This document shows, in pieces, positions 14,212 to 44,880 of a stretch of 64,000 bases of DNA. Within the stretch, counting starts at the first letter, position 1. Every line of letters begins with the position of its first letter. The position numbers were made by a program, and so were the translations under genes. A model generated the notes under the pieces. The model saw only the letters and a list, made by a program, of their open reading frames with translations, was not told the origin of the DNA and did no database searches. The stretch comes from Nocardioides scoriae (GTDB taxonomy: Bacteria; Actinomycetota; Actinomycetes; Propionibacteriales; Nocardioidaceae), in contig NZ_LT629757.1 in the NCBI RefSeq assembly GCF_900104965.1, forward strand, positions 930,001 to 994,000, in the 5' to 3' direction.

Positions 14212-15855
<1,644 letters not shown>

Positions 15856-15980
15856 CGGGTGAGCGTAGGGCGGGGGTGGGGGTGCGTGGGTGGTGGGGCG
15901 CCGTGGGGCCGAGGTCGCGATGGGGCGCGGTCGTGGTGGGGCCGGCGTGCCGGGGGCGGGTGGGCGGCGGCGGGTGGGAC

Positions 15981-16445
15981 GTCGTGCGAGGTGGTCGCGC
16001 TGGCGGCCGGGCCGGATGACGTCCCGGTGGGTGTCGTACGAGGTGGCTGCTCTGGCGGCTGGTCCGCATGACGTCCTGGTGGGGGTCGAACGAGGTGATC
16101 GCCCTGGTCGTGGCTGGGCGGCTTGTCGTGTGGGTTCCGCGTCAGCCCGTGGCTCGGATCCCACACGACGCCGGGGTGAGGATCGGGGAGCTGTCGATCA
16201 CCTGGGGCGGGACGTCGTACGACGTGGCCGTCCTGGCAACCAGGTCGCATGACGTCCCGGTGGGTGTCGTGCAAGGTGGTTGCCCTGGCGGCTGGTCCGC
16301 ATGACGTCCCGGCGGGTGTCGTACGAGGTTGCTGCTCTGGCGGCCGGTCCGCATGACGTCCTGGTGGGTGTCGTGCGAGGTGGTCGCTCTAGCGGCCGGG
16401 CCAGATGACGTCCCGGCGGGTGTCGTACGACGTGGTCGCCCTGGT
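15981..16445. repeat. 52-bp tandem repeat array (six full, two truncated units)
   Basis: Units begin at 15981, 16033, 16214, 16266, 16318 and 16370, each exactly 52 nt. Truncated units begin at 16085 and 16422, and a hairpin element follows each truncated unit. Every unit opens with GTCGTRCGAG or a close variant (a perfect 10-bp palindrome GTCGTACGAC in two), has CTGGCGGC-like sequence in the middle, and contains ATGACGTCC near its end. Divergence between units is about 10-20 percent. Fifty-two is not a multiple of 3, so this is not a protein repeat, although the G/C-rich sequence leaves frames open on both strands. Function unknown. Confidence 0.85.
16125..16169. repeat. Long hairpin element, copy 1
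   Basis: Arms 16125-16139 and 16155-16169 are 15 nt with a single mismatch (outer 10 bp GTCGTGTGGG/CCCACACGAC perfect). The 15-nt loop itself contains AGCC/GGCT. The element interrupts a truncated 52-bp unit. An identical 45-nt copy is at 16471. Confidence 0.8.
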
Positions 16446-16470
16446 CGCCCTGGTGGTGGCCGGGCGGCAC

Positions 16471-16515
16471 GTCGTGTGGGTTCCGCGTCAGCCCGTGGCT
16501 CGGATCCCACACGAC
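16471..16515. repeat. Long hairpin element, copy 2
   Basis: This is the second copy of the 45-nt hairpin, identical over its arms and loop to that at 16125. It again follows a truncated 52-bp unit, and the G-rich sequence after each copy (around GGGGAG) is related. The pair shows that a block of [52-bp units + hairpin + tail] was duplicated. Confidence 0.8.
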
Positions 16516-16533
16516 GAGGCCGAGGTGGGGATT

Positions 16534-16572
16534 GGGGAGTCCTGCTGTCACCAGGTGGCAGCAGGACTCCCC
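16534..16572. terminator. Very strong hairpin, 14-bp perfect stem
   Basis: GGGGAGTCCTGCTG (16534-16547) pairs with CAGCAGGACTCCCC (16559-16572). Inside, CACC/GGTG extend the stem almost to closure, so the whole 39 nt is nearly palindromic. It lies 58 nt beyond the stop of the decayed kinase gene on the minus strand and could be its old terminator, or the boundary of the repeat block. Confidence 0.6.
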
Positions 16573-16629
16573 GTTGACGTGTGCTCGACCCAGCGTGGTC
16601 CGACGCCGTACGACGTCCCGGCGGGGTCG

Positions 16630-16920
16630 TCACCACCCGATCCGGCGCAGCACCTCCCGGGCGGTGTCAGTCGCCGCCTCGTCGGCGTGCCGGGCTACGA
16701 GGCGGGTACGCACGACATCGGGGGCGACGACCAGGCGACACGTCACCAGGGGCATCCCCACCGCGGCCGTGACCTGTCGCAGCTCGGCGTGCGTCTCCAC
16801 GACGCCGGAGAGGACGAGCCGGTGAGCACCCGCCCGGACGAAGCTCGCAGCCAGCGGCGCGAGGTTCTCGACCGTGAGCCGGGAGCCGGACGGGTCGTCG
16901 GGCGGCGGCCGCCGTGGACC
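16630..16920 (-). pseudogene. Remnant of a P-loop (AAA/kinase-like) protein gene
   Basis: Reading the minus strand to a TGA at 16630-16632 gives sequence with normal coding bias: PPPDDPSGSRLTVENLA, then FVRAGAHRLVLSGVVE, RLVVAPDVVRTRLVARH, and finally DTAREVLRRIGW. This matches, from memory of the family, the middle and C-terminus of actinobacterial P-loop kinase-like ATPases that carry a PPPDDP...RL...NLA stretch and end in EVLR..GW. The N-terminal P-loop segment is missing, since murA ends at 16994. About 45 residues between RLVARH and ADEAATDTAREV are also lost. No plausible start codon remains. It lies beside the repeat array, in line with local rearrangement. Confidence 0.6.
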
Positions 16921-16993
16921 TGCCTGCGCCCACGGCGCCGTCTCGGAGCAGGGCGCGGGGCCGGTGCCGGTGCCGGTGCCGGTGCGCGACGCC

Positions 16994-18529
16994 TCAGAAG
17001 TCGGAGAAGACCTCGATCGAGGCGCCGAGCTCGTTGAGGCGCTCGGCGAGGCCTTCGTACCCCCGGTGGATGACGTACGTCGACCGCAGCACCGAGGTGC
17101 CCTTCGAGGCGAGCATGGCCAGCAGGATGACCACGGCCGGTCGCAGCGCGGGGGGACAGACGACCTCGGTGCCCGACCAGCGGGTCGGGCCCTCGATCAT
17201 CACGCGGTGGGGGTCCATGAGGGTGACCTTGCCGCCGAGCTTGTTGAGCTCGGTGAGGTAGATGGCGCGGTTCTCGTAGACCCAGTCGTGCAGCATCGTC
17301 TGGCCCTGCGCGACGGCCGCGATGACGGCGAAGAACGGCAGGTTGTCGATGTTGAGGCCGGGGAACGGCATCGGGTGGATCTTGTCCAGCGGCGCGTGCA
17401 GGACCGAGTGCAGCGTGGTGAGGTCGGCCAGGCGGGTGCGGCCGTTGGCCGCGACGTACTCCTCGGAGAGGGAGTAGCGGAAGCCCATCTCCTCCAGCAC
17501 GGACAGCTCGATCTCGAGGAACTCGATCGGCACCCGCTTCACGGTGATCTCGGAGTCGGTGACGATCGCGGCCGCGAGCAGCGACATCGCCTCGATCGGG
17601 TCCTCGCTGGGGGAGTAGTCGACGTCGACGTCGATCTCGGTGCAGCCGGTGACGCTCAGCGTGGTGGTGCCGATGCCCTCGATGCGGACGCCGAGCTTCT
17701 GCAGGTAGAAGCACAGGTCCTGGACCATGTAGTTGGAGCTGGCGTTGCGGATGATCGTCGTGGAGTCGCACAGCGCGGCGGCCATGAGGGCGTTCTCGGT
17801 GACGGTGTCGCCACGCTCGGTCAGCACGATCGGGCGCCGCGGGGTGATGCCGGGGGAGACGTTGGCGTGGTAGCTGCCCTCGGTGGCCTTCACCTGCAGG
17901 CCGAAGGGCCGCAGCGCGGTCATGTGCGGCTCCACGGTGCGGGTGCCGAGGGAGCAGCCGCCGGCGTACGGCAGCTCGAAGTCGCTCATCCGGTGCATCA
18001 GCGGGCCGAGGAACATGATGATCGAGCGGGTACGCCGCGCGGCGACCTCGTCGATCGACTCCAGGCTCAGGGTGGCCGGCGGCACGATCTCGAGGTCGTT
18101 GTCCTCGTTGAGCCAGCGGGTCTTCACGCCGAGGCTGTCGAGCACCTCGAGCAGGCGGTTGACCTCCTCGATGCGGGCCACGCGGCGCAGGGTGGTGCGA
18201 CCACGGTTGAGCAGCGACGCGCACAGCAGCGCGACACCGGCGTTCTTGGAGGTCTTGACCTCGATGGAGCCGCTCAGCGTGGTCGGGCCCTGCACGCGCA
18301 GGTGGGTGGGGCCCTGGCCCAGGCTCATCAGCGGCTGGTCGAGGGCCTCGCCGATGCGGGCCAGCATGTCGAGGGTGAGGTTCTGGTGTCCTCGCTCGAT
18401 GCGGTTGACCGCGCTCTGGCTGGTGCCGAGCTCCGCGGCCAGCTGCTGCTGCGTCCAGCCGCGGTGCTTGCGCGCGTCGCGGATGAGAGTGCCGATGCGT
18501 CCCAGGTAGTCCTCAGTCACGACCGGCAC
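16994..18529 (-). CDS. MurA-like enolpyruvyl transferase fused to an N-terminal XRE helix-turn-helix
   Basis: Residues about 8-68 form an XRE/Cro-type DNA-binding domain (IRDARKHRGWTQQQLAAELGTSQSAVNRIERG). Residues 72-511 are an EPSP-synthase-fold domain of the MurA type, which in the classic enzyme adds enolpyruvate to UDP-GlcNAc in peptidoglycan synthesis. Lys95 (TSKNAG) and Cys192 (GGCSLGTR) align with MurA Lys22 and Cys115. The usual TDMQAQ active-site loop reads FPGLNIDNLPFF here, so activity may be altered. A perfect palindrome lies 1 nt upstream of the GTG at 18527-18529; a second GTG at 18518-18520 is possible. It could be a second MurA, a regulator that senses wall precursors, or both. 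Confidence 0.88.
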   Translation of the reverse strand: MPVVTEDYLGRIGTLIRDARKHRGWTQQQLAAELGTSQSAVNRIERGHQNLTLDMLARIGEALDQPLMSLGQGPTHLRVQGPTTLSGSIEVKTSKNAGVALLCASLLNRGRTTLRRVARIEEVNRLLEVLDSLGVKTRWLNEDNDLEIVPPATLSLESIDEVAARRTRSIIMFLGPLMHRMSDFELPYAGGCSLGTRTVEPHMTALRPFGLQVKATEGSYHANVSPGITPRRPIVLTERGDTVTENALMAAALCDSTTIIRNASSNYMVQDLCFYLQKLGVRIEGIGTTTLSVTGCTEIDVDVDYSPSEDPIEAMSLLAAAIVTDSEITVKRVPIEFLEIELSVLEEMGFRYSLSEEYVAANGRTRLADLTTLHSVLHAPLDKIHPMPFPGLNIDNLPFFAVIAAVAQGQTMLHDWVYENRAIYLTELNKLGGKVTLMDPHRVMIEGPTRWSGTEVVCPPALRPAVVILLAMLASKGTSVLRSTYVIHRGYEGLAERLNELGASIEVFSDF

Positions 18530-23422: not shown

Positions 23423-24457
23423 TCAGCCCCGACCGAACAGCTGCACCCAGTAGGTGCGGTAGGGGCTGCCCGGCACCTCGGCCAGGCCGACGCCGAGGTC
23501 GCGGGCTCCGGCGGCCATGATGTTGCGGCAGTGCCCGTCCGAGTCGAGCCAGCCCTGCACCACGTCGGCCGGGGTGCGGTAGCCCGCGGCGATGTTCTCG
23601 CCACTCGCCGTCGTGTAGCCGGCTGCGCGGGCACGGTCCCAGGGAGAGCGTCCGTCGAGCGAGGTGTGCGAGAAGTAGGCCTGCTCGCCCATGTCGCGGG
23701 CGTGGTCGCGGCTGGCCAGGGTGAGGCGCGGCTCGGCCCGCAGGGCCCCCACCGCGGGGTACGCCGTGCCGCCGCACTGCCGCGCCACCGAGCGGGCCTC
23801 GTTGACCAGGCGCAGGACCTCGGCCTCGGGGGCGCTCATGGTGCCGTCGGGCGCGGGGGCCGCCGTCGGGCTGGCCGTCGGGCTGGGCGTCGGGCTGGGG
23901 GTTGGGCTGGGGGTCGGGGTCGGCGTCGGGGCGGGCGCTCCCGCCCCGGGGGGCACCGGGGTGGGGCTCGGGAACGGGCTGGGCGTCGGGCTGGTCGTCG
24001 GGCTGGGCGTCGGGCTGGGGACCGGCGTCGTCGCGGTGACGCTGACGACGAACGGTCGCGGTGCGGTGGTCGTCCAGCGGGCACGCCGGGTCGGGCGGAC
24101 CACGACGCGCAGCGAGCCCTCGGTGGGCTCGGCGGTCGGCACGTCGAGGGCCACCGCGCCGCTGCGGCTGCTGGTGGCCCGGTCGACGGTGGTCCAGGAG
24201 GCGCTGCCCTCGCGGGACTGCAGCGCGACCAGCCGCCCGGCGCGCGCGGAGCCGCGCAGCGACAGCCGGAGCGCGTGGTCCACGTCCTGGGCCAGGTCGA
24301 GACGGTCGGTGCTCCACCCCGACACCGTGGTGCGGACCTGCCCGCCGGCCTCGGCCGGCGCCGCGACCAGGGTGAGGCTGGTCGCGGCGCCGGTGCCCGC
24401 GAGGGCCAGGGCCGACAGCGTGAGTCCGAGGTGGCGGCGGCGGGGGAGAGCGCTCAT
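23423..24457 (-). CDS. Secreted CAP-domain (SCP/YkwD-like) protein
   Basis: The 344-residue exported protein starts with a Sec signal (RRRHLGLTLSALALAG...APAEA, cleavage near residue 38). Residues about 40-150 form a beta-rich domain. A long Pro/Ser/Thr linker at about 150-200 is built of PSPTPSPT-type repeats. The C-terminal CAP domain has LRLVNEARSVA, YFSHTSLDGRSPWDRARAAGY, GENIAAGY and WLDSDGHCRNIM, including the conserved His/Glu residues. CAP proteins are secreted and of varied or unknown activity. The linker is a likely site of O-mannosylation. Confidence 0.87.
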   Translation of the reverse strand: MSALPRRRHLGLTLSALALAGTGAATSLTLVAAPAEAGGQVRTTVSGWSTDRLDLAQDVDHALRLSLRGSARAGRLVALQSREGSASWTTVDRATSSRSGAVALDVPTAEPTEGSLRVVVRPTRRARWTTTAPRPFVVSVTATTPVPSPTPSPTTSPTPSPFPSPTPVPPGAGAPAPTPTPTPSPTPSPTPSPTASPTAAPAPDGTMSAPEAEVLRLVNEARSVARQCGGTAYPAVGALRAEPRLTLASRDHARDMGEQAYFSHTSLDGRSPWDRARAAGYTTASGENIAAGYRTPADVVQGWLDSDGHCRNIMAAGARDLGVGLAEVPGSPYRTYWVQLFGRG

Positions 24458-43977: not shown

Positions 43978-44880
43978 TCAGGCCTGCGGCGTGGGCGTGC
44001 CCGCGGCGGGCGCGTCGGCCGGGGGCTTGGCGGGACCCGTGCCCGCGCCCGGGCCCTTGCCCGGGGTGGGCGGGGCGGGCGGGGTGGGTGCGCCGGAGTC
44101 GGAGGAGCCGGGGGCGGCCGGGGCCGTCGGGGCGGTGGGCGCCGAGCCGTCGGCCGCCGGACCGCAGCCGGGGGCCGGCGGGGCCGGGGGCTTCGGGGTG
44201 CCCTCGCCGGCGGCCGGCGGGGTGGGCGGCTTCGGGGCGTCCTCGCCCGTGGGCGGCGTGGGCTTCTCGCCGCTGGGCGGCTTGGGGGCGTCGCCGCCGG
44301 TCGGGGGCTTCGGGGCGTCCTCGCCCGTGGGCGGCGTGGGCTTCTCGCCGCTGGGCGGCTTGGGGGCGTCGCCGCCGGTCGGGGGCTTCGGGGCGTCGTC
44401 GCCCGTGGGCGGCTTCGGGGCCCCGGCGGGCGGTGCCGGCACGGCGCAGTCCCGGGCGGCGGACCCGTCCTGGTCCGCGTCCGCCCCCGACCCCGTGGAC
44501 CCGTCCGAGGTGCCGGAGCTCCCCGTGCCGCCGGCAGCGGAGCCGGAGCCGCCCGCAGTGACGGCGGCGTCCGAGAGGGCGCTGGTCGAGGCCGTGGGCG
44601 TGGTGGCGGCGGTGCCGCCCGCGATGGCGGGCACGGCGTAGGCGACGCCCACGGCGGCCACCCCCGCGACGGCCAGCGCGGCGAGCGGCGCCCGCCGGGG
44701 AGCGCGTCGCCGGGGAGCCGCGTCGGCCCCGATCGGCGAGGCGGCGACGGACTCGCGGTAGGCCGGGATCGGCTGGGTGTCGTCGTGCGCGGCGTACGCC
44801 GCCCGCTGCGCCTCCTGGTGCTGCTGGGCACGGCGGCGCGCGCGGAGGGCACGGAGCTGGTCGATCGGGTTCTGCGACAT
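43978..44880 (-). CDS. Membrane-anchored Pro/Lys/Gly-rich repeat protein
   Basis: The 300-residue protein begins MSQNPIDQLRALRARRRAQQHQ with a basic cytoplasmic head. One transmembrane helix (LAALAVAGVAAVGVAYAVP) lies near residue 68-86. A long low-complexity outer part follows, holding a 26-residue repeat (blocks of APKPPTGGD, APKPPSGEK, PTPPTGED) present twice. Two Cys (RDCAVP, APGCGP) flank the repeats. It looks like a wall-spanning stalk. It lies downstream of a small membrane protein on the same strand, divergent from the two-component system at 45373, which probably controls it. Confidence 0.75.
   Translation of the reverse strand: MSQNPIDQLRALRARRRAQQHQEAQRAAYAAHDDTQPIPAYRESVAASPIGADAAPRRRAPRRAPLAALAVAGVAAVGVAYAVPAIAGGTAATTPTASTSALSDAAVTAGGSGSAAGGTGSSGTSDGSTGSGADADQDGSAARDCAVPAPPAGAPKPPTGDDAPKPPTGGDAPKPPSGEKPTPPTGEDAPKPPTGGDAPKPPSGEKPTPPTGEDAPKPPTPPAAGEGTPKPPAPPAPGCGPAADGSAPTAPTAPAAPGSSDSGAPTPPAPPTPGKGPGAGTGPAKPPADAPAAGTPTPQA
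44228..44383. repeat. 78-bp direct repeat, two copies
   Basis: Bases 44228-44305 and 44306-44383 are near-identical tandem copies, with a partial third following. The unit is in frame (26 codons) and makes the Pro/Lys-rich repeats of the stalk protein, so copy number can change its length. Confidence 0.85.

Follow-up and report, generated by a model that had tools for sequence, protein, structure and literature searches.

A 52-bp repeat array of Nocardioides scoriae is a local pile-up of a dispersed REP/BIME-like palindrome and may serve as a two-footed duplex-DNA site

Introduction

In Nocardioides scoriae, a run of 52-bp repeats and long hairpins occupies the gap between an ABC-F-type ATPase gene and a murA-type gene, both of which point leftward. 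An initial annotation described this run as an array that fits no known repeat class and that might be a phased site for a DNA-binding protein. What is the repeated unit, does it occur elsewhere, and is it better understood as a site on duplex DNA, as a hairpin, or as a mobile repeat? To answer this, we analyzed the array within a stretch of 64,000 nucleotides (hereafter the window), which corresponds to positions 930,001–994,000 of a genome that consists of one contig of 4.06 Mb.

Results

The array is built from imperfect 52-bp palindromes and two further hairpins

Tandem Repeats Finder (TRF; period 52 at 15973–16107 and 16206–16444), a repeat search, and a 52-position matrix agreed on 6 full and 2 truncated units in 2 blocks, confirming the composition that had been proposed. 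The array starts at 15975 and not at 15981 as annotated. Block 1 consists of 2 full abutting units on the + strand (15975–16026 and 16027–16078) and a truncated third unit that starts at 16079 and keeps the left arm and has lost the right one (16079..16117, +, right limit approximate). Block 2 contains 4 full abutting units (16208..16415, +), with starts at 16208, 16260, 16312, and 16364, and a truncated fifth unit, in which 9 bp are duplicated internally at 16433–16454 (16416..16467, +, right limit approximate). TGACGTC and GTCGTACGAC had been read as 2 motifs of each unit. Because the whole 52-bp unit forms an imperfect palindrome with the feet GTCRTRCG...CGYAYGAC, both motifs belong to the 2 feet of one palindrome. 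We refer to this palindrome as family A, and its consensus from 49 copies is nGGGACGTCGTGCGAGGTGGTCGCCCnGGCGACCGGnnCGCATGACGTCCCG.

In each block the truncated unit is followed by a hairpin of 45 nt (hairpin B; 16125..16169 and 16471..16515) and then by hairpin C, neither being assigned to a strand. The 2 copies of hairpin B are identical letter for letter, as annotated, and the DNA fold of copy 1 (−18.7 kcal/mol) was not matched in stability by any of 200 shuffled sequences. Hairpin C closes block 2 (16534..16572, 39 nt); its fold has 18 pairs around a loop of 3 nt, not the 14-bp stem described before, and again 0 of 200 shuffles were as stable. The 2 blocks had also been said to end in related G-rich tails. 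Alignment suggests that the tail of block 1 is a probable truncated hairpin C (16185..16205, limits approximate), so that apparently only block 2 has a complete hairpin C. Beyond the array, the repeat search detected an isolated right-foot remnant (16603..16620, no strand assigned), possibly the leftover of a doublet like the one found close to the murA stop in relatives. The decayed gene noted at the end of the array (16630..16989, −) retains part of an AAA_33-like P-loop domain, a weak match at 16.6 bits (cut-off 27). The flanking genes are the ABC-F-type gene (14212..15855, −), recognized by 2 stretches of ABC_tran, and the murA-type gene (16994..18529, −, start not certain), recognized by an EPSP_synthase domain.

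The blocks align as a duplicated A-A-A'-B-C composite in which block 2 has 2 extra units, which supports the composite duplication that had been proposed. The best unit-to-unit identities (0.94 between 16027 and 16312, and 0.87 between 15975 and 16364), however, run in the order opposite to the block alignment, which probably means more than one duplication step. The composite may have been duplicated through unequal recombination or slippage, and hairpins B and C would be separate REP-like families captured into it. Elsewhere in the window, we observed a 78-bp tandem repeat of 2.5 copies with 97% match (44221–44413) and a degenerate 12-bp tandem repeat of 13 copies (23864–24019).

The palindrome is dispersed in the genome and mostly lies between genes

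Querying the genome with the array gave 45 matches. Two degenerate unit patterns matched 27 and 36 times with 0 matches for the reversed controls, and the 27 matches against 0 argue that the pattern is not due to chance. A covariance model built from 49 copies produced 131 strand-wise matches at E≤1, which may be a lower bound because 150 of 19,854 first-look candidates were scored, and which were merged by hand into 55 positions; the matrix scan of the fetched loci found 53 palindromes in 25 runs. Family A is thereby located at 22 places, 20 of them intergenic and 2 inside called genes (1,048,114, weak, and 3,273,486), gene calls for context being those of a codon-usage caller. The palindromes mostly occur as abutting pairs. 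The array is thus a local pile-up of a dispersed palindrome and not unique, and this palindrome is a short, imperfect one with many dispersed, mostly extragenic copies, that is, a REP/BIME in the broad sense. The statement that it fits no repeat class is therefore not supported. The initial annotation was right that the array is neither a CRISPR nor a coding repeat: the units abut without unique spacers and their copies are dispersed genome-wide, and 52 is not a multiple of 3.

The 20 intergenic clusters fall in 10 convergent, 8 co-directional, and 2 divergent gaps (the call at 463.6 kb is uncertain), and 18 adjoin at least one gene 3' end. As reference we used the 62 gene boundaries of the window with the array gap left out (12 convergent, 38 co-directional, 12 divergent). 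Convergent gaps were in excess (10/20 versus 12/62, p 0.002; p 0.054 when weighted by gap length), and divergent gaps were fewer than in the window (p 0.23 by boundary count, 0.015 length-weighted).

When as many as 3 mismatches are allowed, this genome has 3 copies of hairpin B and 9 of hairpin C. The 23 other genus genomes yielded a single place for C in each of 2 genomes and a single place for B in 1 genome, all with 3 mismatches. Hairpin C forms a separate family of nine 39-bp palindromes, located at 16534–16572 of the window and at 188980, 497399, 673375, 1803444, 1804486, 1986281, 3294370, and 3625408 of the contig, with at least 2 arm types (TCCTG-like and GAYCR-like) in different combinations. 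At 497.3–497.5 kb, single copies of hairpin B, hairpin C, and family A occur together, with B and C 17 bases apart versus 18 in block 2. Eight of the 9 copies of hairpin C were examined for context: 4 lie in convergent and 4 in co-directional gaps, none in a divergent one, and 6 lie no more than 30 bp from the 3' end of a called gene, one of them overlapping that end, the other 2 being more than 100 bp away. Hairpin C fits a 3'-end element.

A second palindrome class, with CGTCAT feet, the same length, and another interior (TCGTGGCC...GGCCACGA type), was observed at loci L117, L135, L138, L140, L146, L147, L157, L163, and L170, at several of them between family A doublets. The length from CGTCAT to ATGACG was 42 in all 21 rows (allowed range 40–46), of which at least 5 are ordinary family A units. 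At L117 (3058400–3063600 of the N. scoriae contig), L147, and L170, which represent 3 species, family A and a second-class palindrome lie downstream of a parB-like gene, a name that is a reading of the sequence (protein end, parS-like site nearby) and not the result of a family search.

Doublets look like the dispersed unit, and they differ from known REP systems

In N. scoriae, 18 clusters consist of exactly 2 units at 52 bp, block 1 included. Over 3 genomes, head-to-tail similarity of neighbors exceeded head-to-head similarity in 47 of 57 decided pairs, with 2 ties. Left and right doublet units are in register between loci (identity 0.741 versus 0.725 when swapped; 0 of 500 permutations reached this value), which suggests that in this genome the element is dispersed as a doublet. 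Among 20 stretches from 6 other genomes, picked among the best matches, 5 had a close pair (four at 52 and one at 63) and 15 had none. Identity within doublets compared with identity between loci was 0.740 versus 0.727 in N. scoriae, 0.780 versus 0.692 in its relative G009, and 0.784 versus 0.707 in its relative G002. Fresh duplication as the source of doublets is accordingly unsupported in N. scoriae and possible in the 2 relatives.

The initial annotation had considered that the unit might be a known REP end; it is REP-like, but no published family matched it. The closest parallels are the CGTC-tagged REPs, which, according to Di Nocera et al. 2013 (PMC3733652), occur mostly in Proteobacteria and whose function and spread are described as open questions. 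Like family A, they are dispersed intergenic palindromes located mostly between co-directional and convergent genes, with CGTC followed by complementary AT residues where family A has [A/G]T, and they form dimers, also hetero-armed ones, with no dedicated transposase known. They differ in that their tag is unpaired at one end, whereas family A has CGTC paired at both ends: GTC (columns 7–9) pairs with GAC in 0.92–1.00 of the copies in each of 4 sets, and the leading C pairs in 0.78–0.97. CGTC-tagged REPs also have an 8–9 bp stem with a 4–5 nt loop, whereas half units of family A do not fold as such a stem-loop (mean of 96 half units from N. scoriae −4.5 versus −5.6 for shuffles), and their head-tail dimers are negligible, whereas family A doublets are head-to-tail with a length of mostly 52. 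Enterobacterial BIMEs (PMC2817692) resemble family A in forming doublets and tandem clusters that are mostly intergenic; the same paper reports binding of gyrase and IHF. BIME units alternate in orientation, however, and in family A the same-strand similarity was higher in 47 of 59 pairs and the opposite-strand similarity in 10, with 2 ties. A further trait of BIMEs as a class is that they bind gyrase, IHF, or Pol I. REPINs share the doublet as dispersed unit, and evenly spaced tandem arrays have also been described (PMC3116915); their doublets are inverted with a spacer and accompanied by a RAYT gene. The Y1 transposase family (RAYT; PF01797) gave 0 matches in the N. scoriae genome, the one genome searched, and the control was found in 5 of 14 named genomes; a RAYT-driven REPIN was rejected on this ground. 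Family A is thus a REP/BIME-like family by its anatomy and neither a CGTC-REP nor a REPIN on the features tested.

A plasmid or phage origin was rejected because plasmid and phage collections held no match and none of 3 half-site matches in viral contigs was at a palindrome, both being weak evidence. Known RNA families were rejected as well, with 4 matches that were all below the gathering score, and a search for them at 8 loci returned one tRNA only, in a neighboring locus. Between 15800 and 17000, no sigma-70 promoter or U-tract terminator was found. Among the matches listed from open-licence PMC literature, none dealt with repeats of this kind in Nocardioides or Marmoricola; the retrieved parts of PMC5526307 mention CRISPR predictions only, and those of PMC2267715 count stem-loop families in Mycobacterium and Corynebacterium.

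Two close relatives carry palindromes at some of the same positions

The initial annotation had allowed for the region being absent from all relatives. Instead, at E≤0.001 the family A model gave between 2 and 101 strand-wise matches in each of 15 out of 24 genus genomes and none in the remaining 9. Exact half-site matches were also found in 3 stretches, of Marmoricola endophyticus, a Marmoricola MAG, and Nocardioides guangzhouensis. In the 2 closest relatives, G009 and G002 (MurA 96% identical), the murA/ABC-F gap is occupied as well: one palindrome lies immediately upstream of the ABC-F gene, and a doublet lies close to the murA stop. This indicates that the array is local growth on an old, already occupied site. 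In G001 (MurA 92%), the 1.5 kb next to murA on this side contain no palindrome, and the gap has another content.

Of the 19 palindrome loci of G009, 13 are syntenic with a palindrome locus of G002, and 6 of the 21 N. scoriae loci (the window, L104, L113, L115, L116, and L117) are syntenic with loci of both relatives; because only palindrome-bearing loci were fetched, the remaining loci may be absent or empty in the other species. At shared positions the flanks mostly align at 87–96% identity between species. Overall identity was 85.0% inside palindromes and 87.7% in the 150-bp flanks, which include coding sequence. Counting as orthologues the palindromes with at most 3 gaps, no insertion, and 60% identity kept 19 of the 32 G009 palindromes in shared loci. 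The other 13 are lost or unalignable versus G002, which indicates substantial turnover.

Foot spacing and substitutions suit duplex DNA better than an RNA hairpin

The distance from foot to foot was exactly 40 nt in 122 occurrences (44 + 30 + 25 + 23), and among the other values between 28 and 51 nt only 43 was seen, once. Foot-like words also pair at 10 (19 matches), at 27 (16), and at some longer distances, which we read as other pairings of such words. The covariance model listed a few family A copies of 50, 51, 54, and 83 nt, and L168, one such off-length locus, had no match by the ungapped matrix; the palindrome length is therefore not absolute, and detection favors 52.

Between orthologues of G009 and G002, 14 of 341 foot positions had changed compared with 123 of 642 other positions (p 4e-12). 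Within the 7 clearest pairs alone the figures were 4 of 125 and 20 of 238 (p 0.07, not significant), and replacement by other family members could yield the same pattern of foot conservation. Only 3 of 17 two-sided pair changes went from Watson-Crick to Watson-Crick, and in 81 cases a single change created or abolished a pair. With orientation randomized, the arms paired less than in shuffled sequences in N. scoriae (15.90 versus 16.93; 200 of 200 shuffles as high), G009 (195 of 200), and G002 (193 of 200), and 25 palindromes of other genomes paired about as in shuffles (90 of 200 as high). This pairing below shuffles indicates a hetero-armed palindrome without covariation. As single-stranded DNA, units 16208 and 15975 were matched in stability by 1 and 2 of 200 shuffles and unit 16312 by 179 of 200, the latter arguing against hairpins and not against a duplex site. 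On these sequence comparisons, foot conservation, spacing, and the absence of covariation would suit a site on duplex DNA better than an RNA hairpin.

Spacing between neighboring palindromes was most often 52 (21, 12, and 7 times in N. scoriae, G009, and G002, respectively), followed by 62/63 (5, 3, and 2 times). Other values were 60 (2 in N. scoriae), 49/50 (2 in G009 and 4 in G002), 73 (2 in G009), 84 (1 in G009), and 79 (1 in G002), besides longer ones; 79 and 84 contain a half palindrome. Spacings of 52, 62/63, and 73 fit integral helical turns and those of 49/50, 60, and 79 do not. The 10–11 bp linkers between palindromes differ in sequence from locus to locus. Of 73 foot gaps between palindromes, which count orthologues and duplicated units repeatedly, 38 were at 20–21, 12 at 30–32, 6 at 41–43, and 17 elsewhere. 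A Rayleigh test with 8 linkers taken as independent gave R = 0.86 and p about 0.003, the linkers being chosen post hoc and the 49/50, 79, and 84 spacings left out. The gaps thus cluster near 20, 31, and 42 bp, with small, post hoc statistics. The phased site for a putative DNA-binding protein that had been suggested would fit these gaps together with the foot spacing, the foot conservation, and the absence of covariation.

Discussion

We propose, with about even confidence for and against, that the array arose by local expansion within a lineage-specific REP/BIME-like family whose unit works as a two-footed site on duplex DNA with feet at fixed spacing. Family A would be a 52-bp hetero-armed palindrome scattered mainly between genes, and the array its local tandem expansion. 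A putative dimeric or oligomeric protein would read both feet (GTCRTRCG and its mirror), which would lie 32 bp apart from center to center, about 3 helical turns. In abutting units the next foot would follow 20 bp on, about 2 turns, so that the feet of successive units would all point to the same side of the helix. Candidate proteins are a nucleoid or chromosome protein, or the recombinase responsible for the spread, and we favor a DNA-binding function that would have been taken on after an ancient spread.

The main rival is a plain REP/MITE-like parasite moved by a transposase that acts on single-stranded hairpins, with no host function and with the array as neutral, satellite-like growth, which we consider possible though doubtful. 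Its patchy occurrence (15 of 24 genomes), the local tandem growth, the palindrome identity not above that of the flanks, and the turnover between G009 and G002, where 13 of 32 palindromes are lost or cannot be aligned, all agree with a parasite. So do the second interior class of the same outer length, which fits a mobile family with subfamilies, and the arms that mispair at fixed positions, which fit hetero-dimers, proposed in PMC3733652 to escape hairpin-cleaving enzymes. Against it, the Y1 family was searched and not found in the N. scoriae genome, the plasmid, phage, and viral searches lent it no support (weak evidence), and positions are common to species with flanks mostly 87–96% identical. 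If the repeats acted at the RNA level instead, as transcription terminators or 3'-end protectors of mRNA between gene ends, the 18 of 20 intergenic clusters that adjoin a gene 3' end and the excess of convergent gaps would be expected, and for hairpin C, with 6 of 8 copies within 30 bp of a gene 3' end, this is a good reading. For family A we judge it improbable. The convergent excess weakens to p 0.054 with length weighting, covariation is absent, and an RNA hairpin does not need near-constant foot spacing. Furthermore, the 16 palindromes from 6 of the 8 co-directional clusters do not prefer G-U on the sense strand (32 G-T and 53 A-C, or 20 and 21 without the array), 5 of the 6 full array units fold worse on the strand that runs in the direction of the flanking genes, and 15800–17000 contains no U-tract terminator. 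An operator array specific to a regulator of the murA or ABC-F gene would explain the palindromes just upstream of the ABC-F start in N. scoriae, G009, and G002; it seems highly improbable, since the same palindromes occupy 19 other gaps, mostly downstream of genes, and G001 lacks them in the 1.5 kb next to murA on that side.

Returning to the two-footed duplex site, a more specific version is that a previously undescribed sequence-specific chromosome protein polymerizes along one face of the helix, with feet 3 turns apart and neighbors 2, 3, or 4 turns on, and that the approximately 20 intergenic clusters are bridging or insulating sites whose spread was originally REP-like. We regard this version as rather unlikely. 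If true, the clusters would be such sites, including the one downstream of a parB-like gene in 3 species.

Family A is an actinobacterial family, without a RAYT in the genome examined, that combines a near-constant length, a helix-like spacing, and positions common to species, and these features make the question of parasite or binding site directly testable. The singles, doublets, and six-unit array that occur naturally in a single genome provide graded doses for tests of binding and deletion.
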